A stretch of DNA of 64,000 nt from Ulota crispa (lineage: Eukaryota; Streptophyta; Bryopsida; Orthotrichales; Orthotrichaceae), in contig OY987247.1 in assembly GCA_963920765.1 (NCBI GenBank), positions 18,696,471 to 18,760,470 of the forward strand. Reading direction: 5' to 3'. Below the pieces are notes generated by a model, which was given only the letters and a program-made list of their open reading frames with translations, made no database searches and was not told the origin of the DNA. The position numbers were made by a program, and so were the translations under genes. Below, piece after piece: positions 1 through 40,938 of the stretch (position 1 is its first letter; each line of letters starts with the position of its first letter).

Positions 1-277
1 CCTGACATCAGGCTTGGACACCAGTTCTCTTAGAACTACTCAGCTTGTAATGACGTCTGAAAATAGGATAATCATTCTCAAGCTAAATGATAATGGGCTT
101 GCCTTTGTAACCCTCCAAATCATGAAGGTTAAAAGCAAAGCAATTCCGATACGAGTAGATAAATGCTTGCACCTCATGTACTTCAACATCTGTGAGATGA
201 TGACCTAAACTCAAAGGCAAATCATCAAACTCCGTGGTAGTCTTCTCTATCAAAGAATTACCACCAAATGTAGACAC
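1..277 (-). pseudogene. Start of gypsy reverse transcriptase (runs off left edge)
   Basis: The minus strand reads YRNCFAFNLHDLEGYKGKPI, a stop, then LENDYPIFRRHYKLSSSKRT and GVQA. This matches the well-known entry into Ty3/gypsy reverse transcriptase, where a DLG-type motif precedes the PI-RR-YRLS-E segment. The catalytic YxDD box, RNase H and integrase would lie beyond base 1. Two stops are visible (after KPIII and after GVQA), so the copy is dead. It sets the order of this element as gag, protease, methyltransferase, reverse transcriptase. Confidence 0.75.
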
Positions 278-529
278 AACCTGTGGTTGCTAATAAAAAG
301 AAGGAGGGACAATATCATTGCCTCCAACATAGCCACTTAAGGCCAAAGTAACAAAGACTTTTTTAGCTTGAAGCTCATCCAAAGTTTGCCACTAAAATTG
401 AAAATGATGCTCAAAATCCTTTCCAACTGTAGCAATTAGCATTCTCATTGCACCCTTACCTTTGTCCTCTGCTTCTAAAGTGAACAAATGGCCATATCAT
501 TGCTGAATAGCAAAGCAAATGCCAATGAT

Positions 530-1785
530 TCAAACCATAGAAAGGAAATCCATAGCTTGACCCAATTCAAAGCGTTGTTGATTTTCAATAAGATCATGAG
601 CTGCTATAGTGCCAGTATAAAATCCCATGGCACGCTTTCGCTCATGCCCATTGGGTTCCTTGTAAATAAGACTGTGCAAATTCCAAACCATGCCAAATCT
701 ACGTGCTTGAAATGCAAAGGACTTACAATATGTAACAAAAGTTGGAAATATATCGCAAGGCTTCTCAATTTTGTTGACCAAAGCAAAGGGAAATGAATCA
801 TCTTTGGTCACAGCCAAAGGTTCCCTGTGGTCATCTAAAATATCCCTCATAACACGCCCTGAAGGTCTAATAACTTGTAAAAGAGCCTTAGCCAACATGG
901 AATGTAGCATCATGCTGTTCAAAGCCAATGTGGTCAATAGGCAAATGATCTCAATGCTGCAGCATCTCCAAAGATTAAAGGGCCAAGAATTTGACACATA
1001 TAATGGCCATCTTCCTTTGGCCGATCATCACCCAATAAAGGTACATTTTCAAAAATATACTCTAATAGAGTGGTTTCATGGTTATACCACCACTGTGTAA
1101 TCCTCACCAACTGTATAAATAGGCTAGATTTTGGGTCATCTAACCCTTGACTTGCACCAACTTGTAAGTGACCTTAGCAAGGCCATCTTGCCACAAACAA
1201 ATCAAAATGGCCCAACCTCCTCAAATCCTCATCACTGATAAGGATAATGTTTCTAGAAAGGTGGCCAAAACATCCATGAATGGATGATGGAGATAATTGC
1301 TCAAGAAACTAAGGCATCAACTTCTGAAGACGGTATCGGATTGCTTTGATACGCACATAACTATCATCAAAGTAAATTTATTGCTAAACCATGAGCCCAG
1401 CCATTAATATGGCTGCCAATCCGGTGCCAATGCCTCCAAAAAACTCCTTGAATGTGATCCCGTCTGGAGATAGACGCCAATGAATAGGTTGCTCAAGCAT
1501 AGAGCTGATGGAGATAGAAACCAAAGAGTCAAAAGATACAGAAGCTGCAATGTCCCTACATTGTTGGGACAACTCTTGACGGCTAATCCAAGGCGGCAAA
1601 GCGTCCTTGGAATGCTGAAATGTAGCCACCAAAATCAGTGATTCTTGTCGGTCCTCTAGAAATGTGGCAGCAAATGCTAAGGTCTCCTCTAAAAGTGAAG
1701 GACTAAATAGAAGACTCTCTAAAAATGCCAAGCATCTAAACATAGCGTCAGCAGTCATAGACATGGTCAATGCTACAAATGCCAT
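530..1785 (-). pseudogene. C5 cytosine-DNA methyltransferase domain carried inside the gypsy pol
   Basis: The minus strand gives ordered C5-methyltransferase motifs. Motif I (SAM binding) is EFFGGIGTGLAAILMAG near 1460-1400. Next come ISDEDLRRLGHFDLFVARW and the motif IV core W-P-C with the catalytic Cys near 1170. After it a stop (TAA) sits where the family has Gln, followed by GLDDPKSSLF. Motif VI is YIFENVPLLG near 1050. The motif IX/X region is ERKRAMGFYTGT and FELGQAMDFLSMV near 620-530. The enzyme would methylate cytosine in DNA with SAM as donor. It lies between the protease and the first reverse-transcriptase residues of the same element, so it is an element-borne domain and not a host gene. 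At least three stops after motif I, stops within motif VIII and one frameshift around 990-930 make this copy inactive. The segment 1785-1480 is a linker with PPWISRQEL. Confidence 0.85.
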
Positions 1786-1934
1786 GGAAACTAGTTCCTT
1801 TTGGCCATTGCCAAAAGACCATCCTAATAAAATCTAAGCCTCTTTGGTCTAATTATCCATACCAAAACCAAGAGGATAAAGTGCATGCTAACCAACTAAA
1901 ATATCATAGTTGATAGCATTTGTGACAGTAGACC

Positions 1935-2195
1935 TCAAAGAAAAATGAGAATTGGTAAGTTTCCCCCCACTCTAAATATTAGCTGCAAAGACTCTTTAGT
2001 ATAGCCTGTAGCATGCTCCATGCCACCAACTGAGATGACAATAGTGAATAGACAAGGCACCAAGTCCTTAACAGTTAAATCAAGTTCTACCGCCAAATGC
2101 TTGCCAATCATAACTGGCTGGGCACCTGAGTCCATCATCACCCCACGTGGAATAGTTTGATGACCATACTCTCCACCACATGAAACCACAAACAC
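1935..2195 (-). pseudogene. Retroviral-type aspartic protease of the gypsy remnant
   Basis: The segment contains VMMDSGAQPVMIGKHLAVEL, the D-S-G-A active-site loop and flanking strand typical of retroelement aspartic proteases. In the family this enzyme works as a homodimer and cuts the gag-pol polyprotein. It lies between gag and the methyltransferase-like segment on the minus strand. The open stretch is about 86 codons, shorter than a full domain with its flanks, and the surrounding frames are broken. The active-site Asp is intact in this copy. Confidence 0.75.
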
Positions 2196-2776
2196 TCTAT
2201 TGTCATTTAAAAAACAAACAACACTTGAATATATTGCTTGTTGCTCTCAAGCACATCTTGCTGAAATATCTGCAAGATAAGCTGCTCCTGCCGCTAGAGA
2301 CGCATCTATAAAAAAATGATGCGGTATGTAATTATCTACATGCTTACCAAATGCTACAATGGCTTCAATTGCAAGATTGGCTTGAAGCTATGCTTGAGCC
2401 TTTAAATCTTAAATTAAAGAAGTCTTGGCAATAGTCTGAGAAACCTAAAGAAATGGCATCTCTGCCTCCCTTTTCAAAATACGTCGCACCATATGAAAGA
2501 CCTCAGAGGTCTGAAAACCAGGTGCTATCAACTCCAAGCCAAAAAATATCGGCATTTGCATAACCTTATGAGCCATGGTTTGCAGTAAATCAAATGAAGC
2601 AAAACCTCTAAAATATGGAAGTGAAACAATTGAGCATGTGCCCGTGGCAACAATGTCAGCCAAACCAAAAGATAATGGTAGGCATGCCTGGCCAATAGAA
2701 TTAGTAAGACCACTATGGAGTACGTGTAAGACAGTCGTAACATTTGGAACTGGAAAATAATTAATCCTCCAATATT

Positions 2777-2977
2777 CTAAGATCGAGTAGCAGCTGCAGC
2801 TCCCAACTCTCTAGATGCACTAAATATGTAAGGTTCAGAGCTAGAATAACCAACTGTCTTCTTGAGAGATGTCCTAGAATCAAAAGCTTGAGCCAATGCT
2901 GTAGAGCACTTGAGCTTCTGCTCTAACTCTATGATCTTGGCCTCAAGGGTCTTCTTCTTTTGTGACTTAGCAACCAC
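2777..2977 (-). pseudogene. Coiled-coil linker between gag and protease of the gypsy remnant
   Basis: A short lysine- and glutamate-rich segment (KKKTLEAKIIELEQKLK) with a leucine heptad-like pattern lies between the zinc-knuckle region and the protease on the same strand. Its position suggests the gag C-terminus or a gag-pol linker. It is in a different frame from its neighbours, so the reading frame has shifted. No catalytic motif is present. Confidence 0.4.
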
Positions 2978-3090
2978 AAAATTAGCTGGCTTTATCTCAT
3001 GATGAAGCTAAAAGTTGTGATCCTCATCATGGTTAGTGCCAGCACAATGGTTACACTTCAAAGGTTTCTTCTTGGACTTAGCTTCACCCT

Positions 3091-3960
3091 TCACCTCTTC
3101 TTTTTAATAGCCTTAGATGGCTGAGAAAGAGTTTTGAGTTTCTCTAGGCAATCCTTCTTGGCATGTCTATCTTGCCCACATTTCCAATAATGTATAGTCT
3201 TCTCTAGTTTGGTATCCGCCAGATTGCTAGTAACAGCAGGGATCTTCCTAGATTTAGAAGAATCTATCATGGAAGAGACCATATCCGTGGCGTCATGATG
3301 ACAAAGTGCCCAATCACACCTCTCAACCACAGCAAAAGCTTGGGCTAAACTAGCCCTACCCTCATAATCAAGGATAATCCGTGGAGATACTAAATCCAGC
3401 AACCGCTTGTCGATCTTTGACAAAAAGATCTTCACAAGCTAACTCTCAGTGAAAACTCCACCAGACTCGACAACAAAACATGCCAAGCAAGTGTACTTGG
3501 TGCGTGGCATATCTTCCTTTTCCCTCCAAAAGTCCTAGATATGATGCATCTAATCTCAACAGAATCTGCCATACTCCACTTCCAAATGCGCATTGAACTG
3601 CGCTAGTGAATCAAACCAAAGTGGAGGACCAACTGTGGCTAGTGTTGCCTAAGTAGCTTGAGTCATGCACGACATGATGGGTAGTATGACACTCTCTCTC
3701 CTGGATCCCAGAGCTTTCAATTTTCCATTAGAATCCTCAGAGGCCACTGCCTCACCCTTGTTAGGATTTTCCTCTATCTTCACGGTTGAGGAGGCTATGG
3801 CAGCTACTGCGCCATCCTTAAGAGGTGAAACAAATTCTACTCACATCTCCCAGTAAAGCTGCACCTCAAAAAGCTCAAGTTGATGAGTTTGAGTCCCCTG
3901 CTCATAGGTCCGAAGGGCCTCAAACTCCAAATGTTGAGGCAAAAGCTCAAAAGCAAACCA
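3091..3960 (-). pseudogene. Ty3/gypsy gag remnant with degenerate zinc knuckle
   Basis: Reading leftward, the frames give a capsid-like stretch (WFDSLAQFNAHLEVEYG, then FTES, stop, LVKIFLSKID and FAVVERCDWALC) followed by a CCHC-like knuckle, YWKCGQDRHAKKDC. The spacing fits a retroelement nucleocapsid, but the first cysteine is tyrosine, a change one G-to-A transition would make. A second Cys/His cluster, CNHCAGTNHDEDH, follows near 3045. Gag would coat the RNA of the element whose protease, methyltransferase and reverse transcriptase lie downstream on the same strand. Several stops interrupt it. The upstream limit near 3960 is approximate, and no 5' LTR was identified. Confidence 0.7.
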
Positions 3961-3999
3961 ATCGTTGAAACTAGGCAACCTCTAGCACTTCTCCTTCAC

Positions 4000-5170
4000 C
4001 CATGTGCGGAAGCAAAGCCTCCAATCACAAGGGAAAATCTCCTTTAGTTGTCATGAAAACCGATCAAGCATCAAATCGCGATGATTGTCCTCCATATCAT
4101 CAAACGTGCCCACACTCAAGACTCAAAGCCTACTAGTAGTATTCAACGCCGAATCAAATTGAAAAGCCTTGTTATATCTACTGCTAGCCCAAAGTCCTCA
4201 GTGTGGTCACCTTGTAAGTAGTTTGGTGAAAGAGACCAATAATATTGGCTCCTAGTCTGCACCATAAATAGACTATTTGGATACCTACAACTATCTATAG
4301 GTTTAGGACAACCTACAATTATCTAAAGGCTTATGGCAACTTGACTTGCAATCACCACCAAATTGTGTGGTTCACCGGTAATAACATCCAGTGAGCACAG
4401 GTCCAACACATACAGAAAGGTCTCGCCAGAAATCAACCCGGCCTTACCCCAACAATATGCCCACCTCTAACAAACACAAAAATGGGACAATGTCCGCAAA
4501 CAAGAAAAAGTACCAAAAACAAAATTTAAAATACAAATTTTGGATCCTCTTCCTAAAACAATAGAAAAGCAAAAGTGATACATGCACAACTAGCCAACAA
4601 TGTCTAAAAAACAAGCCACATTGTTCCATAGCAAGGATCAAAACATGTTAACCCTCAGTCGCTTCCTTAAGAGGTTACCACCAACCCGTCAAAAGATTGC
4701 GTGTAAGAAGACATTGTCATCCACATGCGCTCTCTTTCCGACCCAAAACTATCACCCAACAACAAATAGTAGAAGAAAAAACCAACCAATCGGCACATGC
4801 CTACAGCTGGTGATAAGTAGCAAAATAGAATGCAATAACCTATAAATCCAACGCCCCCAAATCCAGTGTCTACTAGTCTAACAAGAAATTTGACAATTCT
4901 TTGGAAAATAATTGGTTGTGAAATTTTGGTGATGTAAATCCAATGAGTTGAATTCACCAAGTTTGGATGATTTAATTAAACTAAGTTTTGCATGAGCTCT
5001 ACCTAAATTTTTGAAATTTCCACTTCCAAGATTTAATTCAAAACCTTAGAGGTGAGGATGAAAAACACCTTCCCAAGCACTCGCGGTCTGTTGGTTCTCA
5101 AAATTAAGGCCAAAATCAAGAAGCACATGAGAGATGGATTGAAAAATTAAGAGTGGAGTCCCGGAAAGGA
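4000..5170. other. Non-coding stretch upstream of the gypsy remnant
   Basis: This interval should hold the 5' leader and possibly the 5' LTR of the leftward-reading gypsy remnant. I could not find a direct repeat partner, a tRNA-primer complement or TG...CA ends, so no LTR is called. The short open frames on either strand show no recognisable motif. Confidence 0.35.
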
Positions 5171-5173
5171 ATC

Positions 5174-5930
5174 CTAGCTACCGGAGGCACAACCCTGCTG
5201 GCTTGTGGGCCTTGCTAGCACCAAAAATCCTAGCCAGCTGCTACCTTGCTCACAACTCCTGCTCTTCCCGTCAAGCCTCGCTCTCGTTGCTGGACGTTGC
5301 TTCTGCGGCCGTGACCACCTTTTGCAGCTCGTCGCTCTAACGCCAGTTGTGCACCTCCAAAATCCTATTTTTTTTTGGTTACTCGTTTGTCGACTCCTAG
5401 CTGCACTCCAGCCCTCGCTCACTGCCGCGCCTATTAAGCTTGGGGTTGCGTCATTCCCCCGGACCCTGACTTGATTTGCTAAGAATCTGCTCTCTGCAAC
5501 CGCAAGAACTCTTGTCACTGCTTTGTCCGCCGAATTTTTGGTTCCTAGCTTGTCAGCTTGTCGCTGTCTCCCACTGCTTGGTCGTCGCTCCCCGTAAGCA
5601 AACTTTAATTTGGCCCTGATTCTGATGAGCAGCTCGTCGACGCTCCCGCTCCAACCTGCGCCCTTGACCGCCATCTAGTGTTGCTCTGACTTCCAAACCC
5701 TAATTCCTCCGTCAACGTGGCCCGCACTGGCTTTTGGCTTGCGGCTTGTTGCTTTGTAGCTCTTCACCCTTGCCTTGCTGGTCCCATCACCGTGCTCCTT
5801 CTCAGAGCTCTAATCCTAGGCACAAGCGTGTGCACTTTTCAAAACCAAAAACCACCGGCTCCACCTCACAAACCTAGCAATGCAAAGTATAAATCCAAAG
5901 CCAAAAACTCAGACTCAGACAAAAACTAGA
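5174..5930. other. GC-rich island with a 166-codon basic open frame
   Basis: Between about 5170 and 5830 the base composition jumps well above the AT-rich surroundings. A minus-strand frame from an ATG at 5674 to 5174 stays open for 166 codons and encodes a basic Arg/Lys/Ser-rich product with no motif I recognise; the opposite strand is also open over long stretches. Such openness can come from GC content alone. It may be a leader or LTR part of the neighbouring retroelement, or a fragment of foreign composition. It is not called as a gene. Confidence 0.3.
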
Positions 5931-6228
5931 AACCCTCAAAGTTTTACAAAACTGCAAAAACTTCAAGAAACAAAAGAAATAAGAGATTCTTTGCCAAATG
6001 AGAAGATACAAAATCTAAGCATTTAATTGTCAGTCAAACTACCTCTCACTTTGCTCATGGAAGAATCCAAGAGTGGAAGGAGAAACATAAAAGATAGTAT
6101 AAAACTCAAAAAAACATAGCAAGCGTGTTCTCTCTCAACAACACCTCACAAGACTTGACTTGATAAAGAATGCCAATTCAAGGAAGTAATGTACCTTAAC
6201 TAACTCCAAGCCCTAAGTGGCCTCAAAT

Positions 6229-6279
6229 GAGGTGCCAAATGGAATGAGGTGCCAAATGGAATGAGGTGCCAAAGGCAAT
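6229..6279 (+). repeat. Three tandem copies of a 17-bp unit
   Basis: The unit gaggtgccaaatggaat begins at 6229, 6246 and 6263. The first two copies are exact; the third diverges after gaggtgccaaa. It is a short minisatellite in otherwise unremarkable sequence. Confidence 0.85.
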
Positions 6280-6437
6280 AACCTTCTCCAAAATTACAAA
6301 AAACAAAGATTATCCACTAATGAAATACATCCGATGTGGCATAGCCATAATGTCACATCATGTGACATCATGGTAAATACTTGGCACAAGTTACCTTGCA
6401 TGTCTGATCCTTTTTTTTTTTGGCGCAAGCCACATAG

Positions 6438-31106: not shown

Positions 31107-33265
31107 ATTTGCAAAGGCCCTATCCATTGCCAATATCAAAAATGCCAAAATGCTAGCCAATGACTTAGGTGATGGAGAGCATCCTCTGATGGCGCTTTAG
31201 AGGACAACCACTAGGAGCAAATAGCAAGATATCTTGTCTCAGCAATTTCCATCGCATAGGAGTCCTTGTATTGTTTGCAAAGTCTAGAGTGTTGCTCCTG
31301 GAAAGCTTCTTTGATATATTTCTAAGTATGTTTCACAAGTGATGTGCTCTAGTGCAGTAAACAAGTCCTCTCGTTGTTTGACATGACTTCATCAAGGTTA
31401 CCAGACCCTAAAACAATCCTAACAGCCTTCCAGTTTGCCATAGCACTGTTTGCCATAAACTCCTTGAAGTTTGGAGTAGCAACACCAAACCTAGTCATAA
31501 CAGCAATCCAAGACCTCCAAAATTGCACTTGAATATTTGTATTCTCGGATTGCATATCACATGTTGCAATGGTCATCACCTTCTTATATCCGGAATCATA
31601 CACATGACATGCCATTGTTGTCCAATCTTGTAATTGCTTGATGTAATCAAACATTATCCAAGAAAGGTGCAAGTCACCCCCTACTTACATCCTCCTAACT
31701 AAATCAACTCCACTCCCTGGTTCTTTGACCAACATTTTAAAAAGATAAACCTTCTCTTTTCCTTGGCTGAGGAAGACACTATCATGGATAAACTCAAACT
31801 TTGAAAGTCTCTTCATCATCATAATATTATCTATGATCCCTCCTTGCTTATTTGATCGCAGTTCAAAAATGACATTACAAATATTTGGGCTACTCAAATA
31901 CTGAAAGCAATCCATCACTTCCTGCATTTCCGTTTCACCTAGCATTGCCTTTTCCTTGTCTCCACTGTGATATAAATGATTTGCAAGGAATTTATCTACA
32001 GCTCCTAATGCAATGGCTGAGTTTGTTGCTTTTAGAGTTTTAGCAACTTCCTCTGCAAGTAGATTCTAGATTTCTTTTGCAGAATCCCTATATGCTCCTT
32101 TAGCAACCAAGTGAGAGTGATGACCTAGATGTGCAACAGCCATGGTCATCCTAATGGTGTCATTGTACACATAGTATATACGTGCATCACATAACTAGAC
32201 ATACTTTGGACTTTCCTTACAGACTTTGCATACAATAGTACGATCTTTTGGCGGATTAGCATCAACTGCAATTGCAAAAATTGTACTTCCACTCCACTGT
32301 GTCTTATTTTTTGTATTCCCCCTCTCTAAATAATTGCAGCCATGATTGATGCATATAAGATGTCCAACGCAAATTGCTTTATTAAATTTCAAATTATTGT
32401 CGTTGTGAATATTAGTAGTGACTAACTTACACCATAGATGACCGTCATACCATTTGTTCATTCCCTCCAAGTTACGTGTAGCTGAAGCAGAGGCTTTAGA
32501 ATGACATGGCAGGAATTCAAACATGACATTCCTAATAAATAGAGGAGGAAGGTACTCCACTCGATGATGTGAAAGAGTAGAATAGTCAAGCAACAAAACT
32601 TTATTTCTACTGCGACGCATGACAGCTAAACGCTTCAAGCATTCCAAAATACTAAGGTGAGCATCAGAATTTGGGTGCAACTGTGAACGCATACTTGCAA
32701 AAATCGATTCGACGTTGGAAAAATTCTTTTGCTGGTTTGAACCACTATTGTTGCCAATTCTTGCACTAGAGGATGCATGTAATAATTTGCGGACATCTCT
32801 ACCACCATTGTGCTCCTCAAAATCCTGAGAAAGTTCCAATATAGGTGACAAGTTCTTGACCTTCACCAATCTAAAAGAATGCGTTGAAGGTAAGATATTT
32901 TCATTTCTAATAATTGGTATAGGTAGAGGTGAGGCAAGGACAAATGGCATTTCTATAGTAGAGACACTTAAGTTCAAATTTGGCTTTTGCAACTCTATTG
33001 TAGGATTTGGCAATAGGAAACCATAAACATGGAATGATCTAGGATGTAGGACCCAGAAATCTCCAGTATTGTCTACACCTTTCAAAACCGGATTACACTC
33101 AACCAAGTTTCCAATGACTAACTTCTTCTCTTCCTCTACATAAACTGAGGATTCCGACAGGCAGAACTAGGCACGAAGCATATGGTTCAGCACTTTTGCT
33201 CTACCATCTTTGTCAAGAGGAACAATTAAAGGAATTTCAAATCCATCAGCACATATGAAAGCCAT

Positions 33266-39334: not shown

Positions 39335-40938
39335 CTACATTACACCTACTTGAAAAACAACTTCAAGGAGCTTCATCAACCACGGTTTACCCATGAGGAG
39401 GCGCACCACGTCATAGCAAGTCAGCCTTCTCTCAACATCAGGCTTTGTCAATTTGCGTAACTTCATTAGAAAGTAATCTTGCGTTTCTGAACTATTGAAT
39501 AAGTCCTCGTTGAACTTGTGATCATCTCCAAGCTTCATCATTAACGCCAACTCCCCAATAGAAAACAAGTCTGATTTCACCAAATATTTGTGTGTTGCTT
39601 GCATCATCTCTAGGCTTCTATCAAGGTTTCCTTCTGAAAACGTATATATTAACTCTAGTGCCACCCACCAATTGCCCTTCAATGTACAATTTATGTCTTC
39701 TTGTTTTTTATATATGTAATGCAAGGTATACCCTTCTTGAATGCAACTAGATATATCCCAATCACAAATCCCAATGTTGATGACCTCCTCTAAATATGCT
39801 AGGAAATGGAAGAGTACGTTTGATGGGAACAAATCATTGTGTAGCACTCCTACTTCATGCACAGGACTAGTAACATACACTAGAGCCTACGCCAACTTCT
39901 CCTTGTGCCTTTGATACAAGCTCACCTTCTTCACCTGCTCTGCTCTGAATTGCTTCATTAGCTTTATTTCATGCCACTCAGCAGATGACACCACCTTGTC
40001 ATTTAGTAAAATCATGTCCTTCAAATGACCACCATTCCACCATAATGTAACTCTTCCATTGTCTGGTCATGAATCGCTAGAAACTTGATAATGCCTAGAT
40101 GATTCAACAGAATCACAAGTGCCTCAGTGGAACGCTCAATTCTTGCTTGATGTAGGTTTTCTGTCTTCAAAGATTTTCCTGCAAATTCTATGTGTTCCCC
40201 AATTGTACTCATTTCCTTGATGCATAATTTGTGCACCTTCCCGTACCCACCAACAAATTATATTCCTATGAGGTCCTCAAACTCAGCTTGCCTGGGTATC
40301 CAAGTAATACATGATGGACCATCCTTTGTCAATTGAGCCTTCAAAGCACTAGCTTGCCACCCCATACCCCTCGTGAGTGTCTTTGACAATCTTCTCATTG
40401 CGCTCATCCACCACTCCATTTTCTTGCAAAATTCCCTTACCTCTTTGCCCTCGACAAATCCAAGCACTTCAGGGCATAAGCCAATCATGAGTTTCTTGGT
40501 GTTGAATATGCACCGCTGCTAACAATTTCCCATCCAAGCCCAAAATCAATTACAATACGTCTCTTGCATGTCCATGAATTCTTCATTCTTGTTGCACTTT
40601 TCCAAAAATGCTGCCATCAACTCGTCTTTCAATTTGGTGGTGCTGGCCTCACAAATTTTCAAATACTTCCTCTCCAAATCTTTAGTGCTTTTATTTGCAT
40701 ACCACTCCAAAGCCACCTTGTACACAAAGTTTGAATATTTTGGCGGCGGGAAATTTGAATCCTTCTTGTTTGCTATCCTTGCTTTCTTTGGTTTTGCTGG
40801 ACCCACGCCGCCAACTTCAACAACAACGGGGATTTCTGGAACAAAGTCATCGGATTTATCAAGGTCCCCACTTGAGGGGGGAACATACGGCTGATACAAT
40901 GAAGTACCACGGCTATTACATTCACCTGGACTTGACAT
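39335..40938 (-). pseudogene. Protein-kinase-like pseudogene with HND loop
   Basis: The likely start is ATG 40938 (MSSPGECNSRGTSLYQPYVP). The N-terminal part (about 130 residues) is low-complexity then helical (KSTKDLERKYLKICEASTTK, ELMAAFLEKCNKNEEF). A helical domain follows (WWMSAMRRLSKTL). A kinase-like fold comes next: glycine loop FVGGYGKVHKLCIKEM near 40240, hinge-like WNGGHLKDMI, catalytic loop LHNDLFPSNVLFHF near 39840, metal loop ICDWDIS near 39760, and the C-lobe to 39335 (PDVERRLTCYDVVRLL). HND replaces HRD and DWD replaces DFG, as in a kinase-like family I associate with mosses; the ligand is unknown. Stops at about 40546, 40519 and 40258 plus one before ALVYVTSP, and a frameshift near 40030, show it is broken. 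It might otherwise sign as a cytoplasmic Ser/Thr kinase or pseudokinase. Confidence 0.7.

Follow-up and report, generated by a model that had tools for sequence, protein, structure and literature searches.

A 64,000-nucleotide stretch of contig OY987247.1 (positions 18,696,471 to 18,760,470, hereafter the window) holds, on the minus strand of its bases 1-6367, a copy of a Ty3/gypsy retrotransposon that carries a cytosine-5 DNA methyltransferase (DNMT) domain of the DNMT3 type, arranged in the order 5′ terminal repeat, gag, protease, DNMT and start of the reverse transcriptase (RT). The copy itself is an ordinary dead member of its family. The position of a DNMT catalytic domain between protease and RT, proposed earlier in a sequence-only reading of the first 3960 bases, is borne out by further copies in the same genome and by an intact relative, the public contig CADCWO010000201.1 (L009), in which the DNMT closes the first of two open reading frames (ORFs).

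All of the motifs named in the sequence-only reading are found on the minus strand in the order claimed, as judged by a three-frame reading of the first 4.3 kb: a gag zinc knuckle within 3091-3438, the protease motif MMDSGA at 2121-2138, EFFGGIGTG (methyltransferase motif I) at 1420-1446, WPC at 1177-1185 with a stop directly after it, ENV at 1042-1050, LGQAMD at 548-565 and the RT residues PIFRRHYKLS at 38-67. The element does lie in bases 1 to 3960 as proposed, but that extent was too short: gag starts near 4280, the 5′ repeat lies further out still and the copy runs past base 1, with RNase H and integrase outside the window (locus L036). Stops and frame changes have heavily decayed the copy, the longest open piece of which is 164 amino acids. 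No PHD finger was seen in it, and an Rfam search of the window gave no match at gathering scores. The parts of the copy are as follows.

6011-6367, minus strand: 5′ terminal repeat (A), beginning TGT and sharing 80.7% identity with the A at the 3′ end of L018; junction read
4285-6010, minus strand: untranslated leader that separates gag from repeat A; presumed extent
3769-4280, minus strand: N-terminal part of gag; two tblastn pieces, the better 55% identical to L009
2780-3696, minus strand: C-terminal part of gag with two decayed zinc knuckles, from the three-frame reading and comparison with L009
1840-2507, minus strand: aspartic protease, with the MMDSGA motif
1549-1824, minus strand: linker joining protease and DNMT, 40% identical to L009
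449-1485, minus strand: DNMT3-type C5 cytosine methyltransferase domain, its reading broken by stops and a frame change near 913-916
284-292, minus strand: ORF1/ORF2 boundary TAG CAA CCA, a stop in the UAG-CAR-YYA readthrough context (PMC2754532)
2-199, minus strand: start of RT, continuing outside the window
G000:C6 18696669-18695859, 18695735-18695319 and 18694988-18694297, minus strand: RT, RNase H and integrase pieces (L036)

Searches with single pieces of the window gave little. Pfam, suggested in the sequence-only reading as a check, returned two matches below cut-off from nine pieces (DNA_methylase, E 0.35; Asp_protease_2, E 0.0085), odd sub-cut-off matches for two others and none for the remaining five. 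PDB searches with three single pieces produced one chance match (E 0.26) and otherwise nothing, and a 149-residue piece carrying motif I found no homologue at E ≤ 0.001. The DNMT part was also joined into a single interrupted reading, with X at each break, and used to query a collection of 5.8 billion proteins. This identified 13 proteins, the best of which (P0001) matches at E 1.9e-109 with 54% identity over 100% coverage and the weakest at 1.6e-16. P0001 in turn matches PF00145 at 8.7e-13. Six of ten homologues scanned from the 13 exceed the PF00145 cut-off, whilst the other four, in which the first half of this domain is missing, give no match. A genome search in the reverse direction, with the intact DNMT domain of L009, recovers the window copy in two parts (E 3.1e-63 and 2.9e-36). 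Judged by these sequence comparisons, the methyltransferase match is far beyond chance.

The L009 contig is 9285 bases long and has two long open frames, both in the same frame and separated by one stop. ORF1 comprises a gag-like part, a protease (E 0.00078, below cut-off) and the Pfam DNA_methylase domain; ORF2 comprises RVT_1, RNase H, Integrase_H2C2, rve and, at its end, a PHD finger. Pfam gives no gag match on the L009 ORFs, gag having been called from its zinc knuckles and position, and finds no chromodomain in ORF2, which also has no tyrosine recombinase match at E ≤ 0.01, its integrase being rve. The order gag, protease, RT, RNase H and DDE integrase is present in L009 and in the genome copies, and in the window copy up to integrase. 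The ends of L009 overlap by 127 bases, which we attribute to circular assembly of a repeat. The L009 record is titled as a cyanobacterial metagenome-assembled genome and that of P0001 as Candidatus Obscuribacterales, yet their content is that of a plant-type retrotransposon; both are probably plant contamination of bacterial bins.

Some other relatives come from named plants. A third homologue search, which scored the 7994 candidates with the most words in common, found 36 proteins, making 49 with the first 13, of which seven are named as liverworts. The names in the third search are Marchantia polymorpha (five proteins: P0033, P0035, P0036, P0038 and P0040), Calypogeia fissa (one) and Closterium (one, weak, with 26% coverage), to which the first search adds M. 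paleacea. In P0046 and P0047 the DNMT occupies a second position, between RNase H and integrase; both end in a PHD finger, which P0044 and P0048 keep as well. A scan of viral contigs found only six distant phage-type loci.

Within the 275 Mb genome from which the window comes, DNMT and RT behave as a unit. When the L009 DNMT domain was searched against this genome, at least 113 pieces at no fewer than 92 places were found, every listed piece carrying at least one stop; 112 of 159 first-look candidates were scored, and the counts are accordingly lower bounds. The search for intact copies thus yields none among those listed in this genome, whereas L009 and the liverwort proteins supply intact relatives. 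It had been suggested that the window element could methylate its own DNA; this copy, being dead, cannot, and since all of the listed DNMT pieces in its genome are likewise interrupted, self-methylation can be entertained only for relatives or ancestors. A parallel search with the L009 RT (E ≤ 1e-30; 142 of 744 first-look candidates scored) found at least 100 places, 93 of them with at least 50% identity. In 87 of these 93 loci a DNMT piece lies within 4 kb upstream of the RT, at a median gap of 297 bp, and in six it does not; DNMT is therefore a fixed part of this element family. None of the seven scored loci below 50% identity has a DNMT upstream. More distant gypsy elements, many of them among the unscored candidates, either have no DNMT or carry one too diverged to detect.

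To look at individual copies, we compared with L009 25 ten-kb stretches of the genome: 24 drawn from 46 Pfam matches, plus the window copy, which those matches did not include. They sort into 18 element copies and seven host genes, which we take to be two DRM, four DNMT3 and one CMT from their motif order and general family features. These host genes and the 275 Mb genome size make a moss, as proposed in the sequence-only reading, a plausible source. The visible parts of the 18 copies lie on one strand in one order, with protease seen in all 18, RT in 17, gag in 16 and PHD in 14; L037 breaks off and L023, L029 and L040 show gaps or interruptions. The host DNMT3 genes, by comparison, are multi-exon and DRM is rearranged. 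L024 and L040 make up a second subfamily of greater divergence within this genome, a pairing with support of 100/100 in the tree described below. Two pairs of copies on opposite strands have identical scores (G000:C3:32753274/32773845, about 20 kb apart, and C4:9402472/9413234, about 11 kb apart), and represent either recent inverted duplications or assembly artefacts.

Several lines of evidence address the class of the enzyme. The motif order of the element DNMT is unrearranged. In an alignment of 26 proteins, hand-chosen from the 49, residues corresponding to P0001 Cys118, Glu161-Asn162 (motif VI) and both arginines of the motif VIII HRxR (Arg201 and Arg203) are invariant in all 26. A PDB sequence search with P0001 places DNMT3A and DNMT3B best, with HhaI and HaeIII weaker. 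An AlphaFold model of P0001 built from the 26-protein input has a mean pLDDT of 79.1, with a core mostly above 90 and low values over the last 110 residues. The best 50 of its 204 structural matches in the PDB (E ≤ 0.001) are all DNMT3A, 3B or 3C, with TM by target up to 0.83, and the best viral structural match reaches E 4.3e-17 compared with 9.7e-20 for DNMT3B. The fold of the element methyltransferase, as modelled, is that of DNMT3.

The sequence-only reading had also called for a phylogeny. Ours contains 60 rows: 51 element domains (L009, 38 database proteins and 12 of the 18 genome copies) and nine outside rows (four host DNMT3, two DRM, one CMT and two of the six phage enzymes). The 51 element domains form one clade (support 99/99) with all the outside rows excluded. 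The family thereby stands apart from host DNMT3, DRM and CMT, but the window copy itself, like five other genome copies, was too broken to be placed. The branch uniting the element clade with host DNMT3 and DRM to the exclusion of CMT and phage has support of 87/58 only; the deep branches are unsure, and the tree program flags the joining of long branches.

Between DNMT and RT, a stop codon in the ORF2 frame occupies the same place in 14 of the 15 main-family copies in which it can be read, with the window copy counted once; the boundary is unreadable in L024 and L037. Twelve of these stops are TAG and two TAA, the next codon is always CAA, and this is followed by YYA in 13 and by CTG in one (L034). 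L009 has TAG CAA TCA, and the divergent L040 has CAA TAG CAA CTA farther from RT. A UAG followed by CAR YYA is the six-base consensus reported to be essential for tobamovirus readthrough (PMC2754532). In L009, ORF2 is in frame with ORF1 and its first methionine, codon 117, comes only after the RT has begun (codon 75 onwards), and readthrough is therefore the simplest route to Pol; the UAG-CAA-YYA context suggests that it occurs. The RNA right behind the stop of L009 is the most structured of 50 tiles (z -4.84), which is suggestive for L009 alone. The DNMT had been expected in the polyprotein position usual for a captured gene. It does indeed lie between protease and RT, but, as it precedes the conserved stop, it belongs to the Gag–protease side rather than to Pol.

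The ends of the element follow a plan other than an ordinary pair of full terminal long terminal repeats. In L018, the sole copy with both ends seen together, repeat A (343 bases) is present at both the 5′ and the 3′ end, the two being 86% identical, and the 3′ A has a 103-base repeat B on either side of it. An uninterrupted B-A-B was found in seven of 16 loci searched (L016, L018, L019, L026, L031, L032 and L034), whilst 90 shuffled controls gave no direct repeats at the threshold used. The 5′ A is seen in L018, in the window copy and partly in L033. Five loci (L025, L033, L035, L038 and L039) have the first B alone with no A-B after it on the 3′ side, which would reflect truncation or another insertion form, and no B was found in L023, L024, L029 or L036. 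The 5′ end begins TGT in both L018 and the window copy, and the 3′ ends of the seven B-A-B copies resemble ACAACAA with substitutions. This A-coding-B-A-B plan is the one given for DIRS elements and said to be shared by a gypsy element (PMC5890265). L018 has AAAT on both sides, a single four-base match that proves no site duplication, and the 3′ side of L040 carries a direct repeat of 335 bases, 677 bases apart.

The gypsy element in question is KnitGypsy-Dnmt3 of Klebsormidium nitens, one of the DNMT captures by retroelements in charophytes and dinoflagellates that the sequence-only reading had mentioned and that de Mendoza et al. 2018 describe in K. nitens and Symbiodinium (PMC5890265). Our element is of the same kind as KnitGypsy-Dnmt3, repeats included, as judged from the published description; no match named K. 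nitens occurs among the first 13 or the further 36 homologues. Shared features are the Ty3/gypsy domains, an unrearranged DNMT3-type domain within the polyprotein, the intronless structure, DIRS-like repeats, conserved catalytic residues and selection against change. There are differences, however. The DNMT of KnitGypsy-Dnmt3 is described as part of the Pol ORF, whereas here it precedes the conserved stop in the gag–protease ORF (P0037, P0041 and the gene model P0036 excepted); a PHD finger ends ORF2 here, whilst the term PHD is absent from the main text of the paper; and the host there is a charophyte, whereas here liverworts and probably a moss are among the hosts. The dinoflagellate SymbioDIRS-Dnmt3 and SymbioLINE-Dnmt are also retrotransposons with a cytosine DNMT, the former with two domain orders as well, but they use tyrosine recombinase or LINE machinery rather than a gypsy RT and DDE integrase and are presented in the same paper as independent acquisitions.

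Plant host DNMT3 and DRM share the enzyme class and motif set of the element, but lie outside its clade and differ in gene structure (DNMT3) or motif order (DRM). Chromoviruses are not known to carry a DNMT. Moss chromodomain Ty3/gypsy elements (PMC3350952, PMC2864245) resemble ours in having a chromatin reader behind the integrase, but in L009 this is a PHD finger. DNMT3 members inside retrotransposons are noted in a 2025 survey as earlier reported in streptophytes and dinoflagellates (PMC12344493), and a 2019 paper describes land plants as without transposons bearing DNA methylases (PMC6338049). Our searches of the open-access literature, including passages of PMC10952607, PMC9516144, PMC9033089 and PMC6453930, turned up no account of such elements in bryophytes or of the stop. 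What appears to be new here is the conserved stop in a readthrough context with the DNMT on its Gag side, the PHD finger ending ORF2 and the land-plant hosts. The M. polymorpha members bring the question of a transposon that carries its host's silencing mark to a genetically tractable plant, and the stop yields a sharp new prediction, that the enzyme would be made at the level of Gag through stop readthrough.

Taken as a whole, the observations are probably best explained by an old Ty3/gypsy family whose first polyprotein is Gag–protease–DNMT and whose packaged enzyme would methylate the element's complementary DNA (cDNA). Ribosomes would mostly stop after the DNMT and occasionally read through into Pol, and the methyltransferase would thereby be made and packaged at the abundance of Gag rather than Pol. 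During or after reverse transcription it would methylate the cDNA, probably at CG, and the new DNA would reach the nucleus already resembling that of the host, where the PHD finger behind the integrase may help to choose the insertion site. The gene would derive from a eukaryotic DNMT3-like enzyme maintained by selection and, if descent was vertical, would have been held since before the split of the liverworts and this plant's lineage. A bolder version, which we offer tentatively and think somewhat doubtful, is that of a streptophyte-wide gypsy lineage in which the DNMT has been a core part of the particle for hundreds of millions of years, with Gag stoichiometry set by a leaky UAG, cDNA methylated in the particle and split A/B repeats that reflect a mode of replication yet to be described for gypsy elements with an integrase.

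A number of observations weigh against this explanation. L032 has a sense codon at the stop position, and in P0037 and P0041 a single frame spans DNMT and RT, which is also true of P0036, a Marchantia gene model that may be spliced. The RNA behind the stop in 14 decayed copies reaches z values of only -3.1 to -0.1. Constraint on the DNMT, on a rough sequence-based measure, is comparable to that on gag and protease, which counts in favour of the explanation, but weaker than on RT and integrase: median ratios of nonsynonymous to synonymous differences (pN/pS) against L009, in copies with more than 100 codons, are 0.40 for DNMT (18 copies), 0.46 for gag (16), 0.46 for protease (18), 0.22 for RT (16) and 0.18 for integrase (15), values that are rough and probably too high because pS is saturated (median 0.73-0.79) and the genome copies are dead. 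The observed/expected CpG ratio is 0.31-0.52 in dead copies and 0.32 in the rest of the window; CpG depletion was rejected as a mark of self-methylation, the background being equally depleted. Tests of the K. nitens DNMT in yeast revealed no activity, a result its authors call inconclusive (PMC5890265). Finally, in BLAST comparisons among a few rows L009 is nearest to two phage enzymes and then DRM, whilst P0047 and P0033 are nearest to host DNMT3. A bacterial or phage origin, raised by this ranking and by a phage-like motif IV, is made less likely by the predicted fold and the PDB sequence matches, which favour DNMT3; the tree is not decisive.

The strongest rival, which we consider unlikely, has the DNMT acting on the host chromosome, where together with integrase and PHD finger it would mark the site of insertion or host DNA nearby and so reduce harm or conceal the new copy. 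The PHD finger of L009, of most genome copies and of the four database proteins named above fits such a role, and chromatin effects at insertion sites and host-protective roles are discussed in PMC5890265; in the main family, however, the DNMT lies in the Gag-side polyprotein and the stop separates it from integrase and PHD, which favours a role inside the particle. It is more improbable still that the DNMT no longer methylates DNA and has instead become a component of the particle that binds nucleic acid, or an enzyme with an RNA target. Action on RNA has been proposed for LINE DNMTs (PMC5890265), and the DNMT evolves faster than RT and integrase, but the catalytic cysteine, the motif VI EN and both HRxR arginines are invariant in the 26-protein alignment and the modelled fold is that of DNMT3. 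That a host DNMT pseudogene merely adjoins gypsy remnants by chance, an idea to which the broken window copy and its weakly scoring pieces lend some colour, is refuted by the layout at 87 of the 93 RT loci and in the 18 copies, by examples on a single contig and within single proteins, and by multi-exon host DNMT3 genes that fall outside the element clade.

Elsewhere in the window, a 126-residue open frame at 31685-32065 (minus strand) scores just above the cut-off of a Pfam Dot/Icm substrate family (E 7.9e-6), a match that in a plant genome is likely to be due to chance or to be mis-scoped. At 39335-39886, also on the minus strand, lies a protein-kinase-like fragment (E 7.4e-5, below cut-off).

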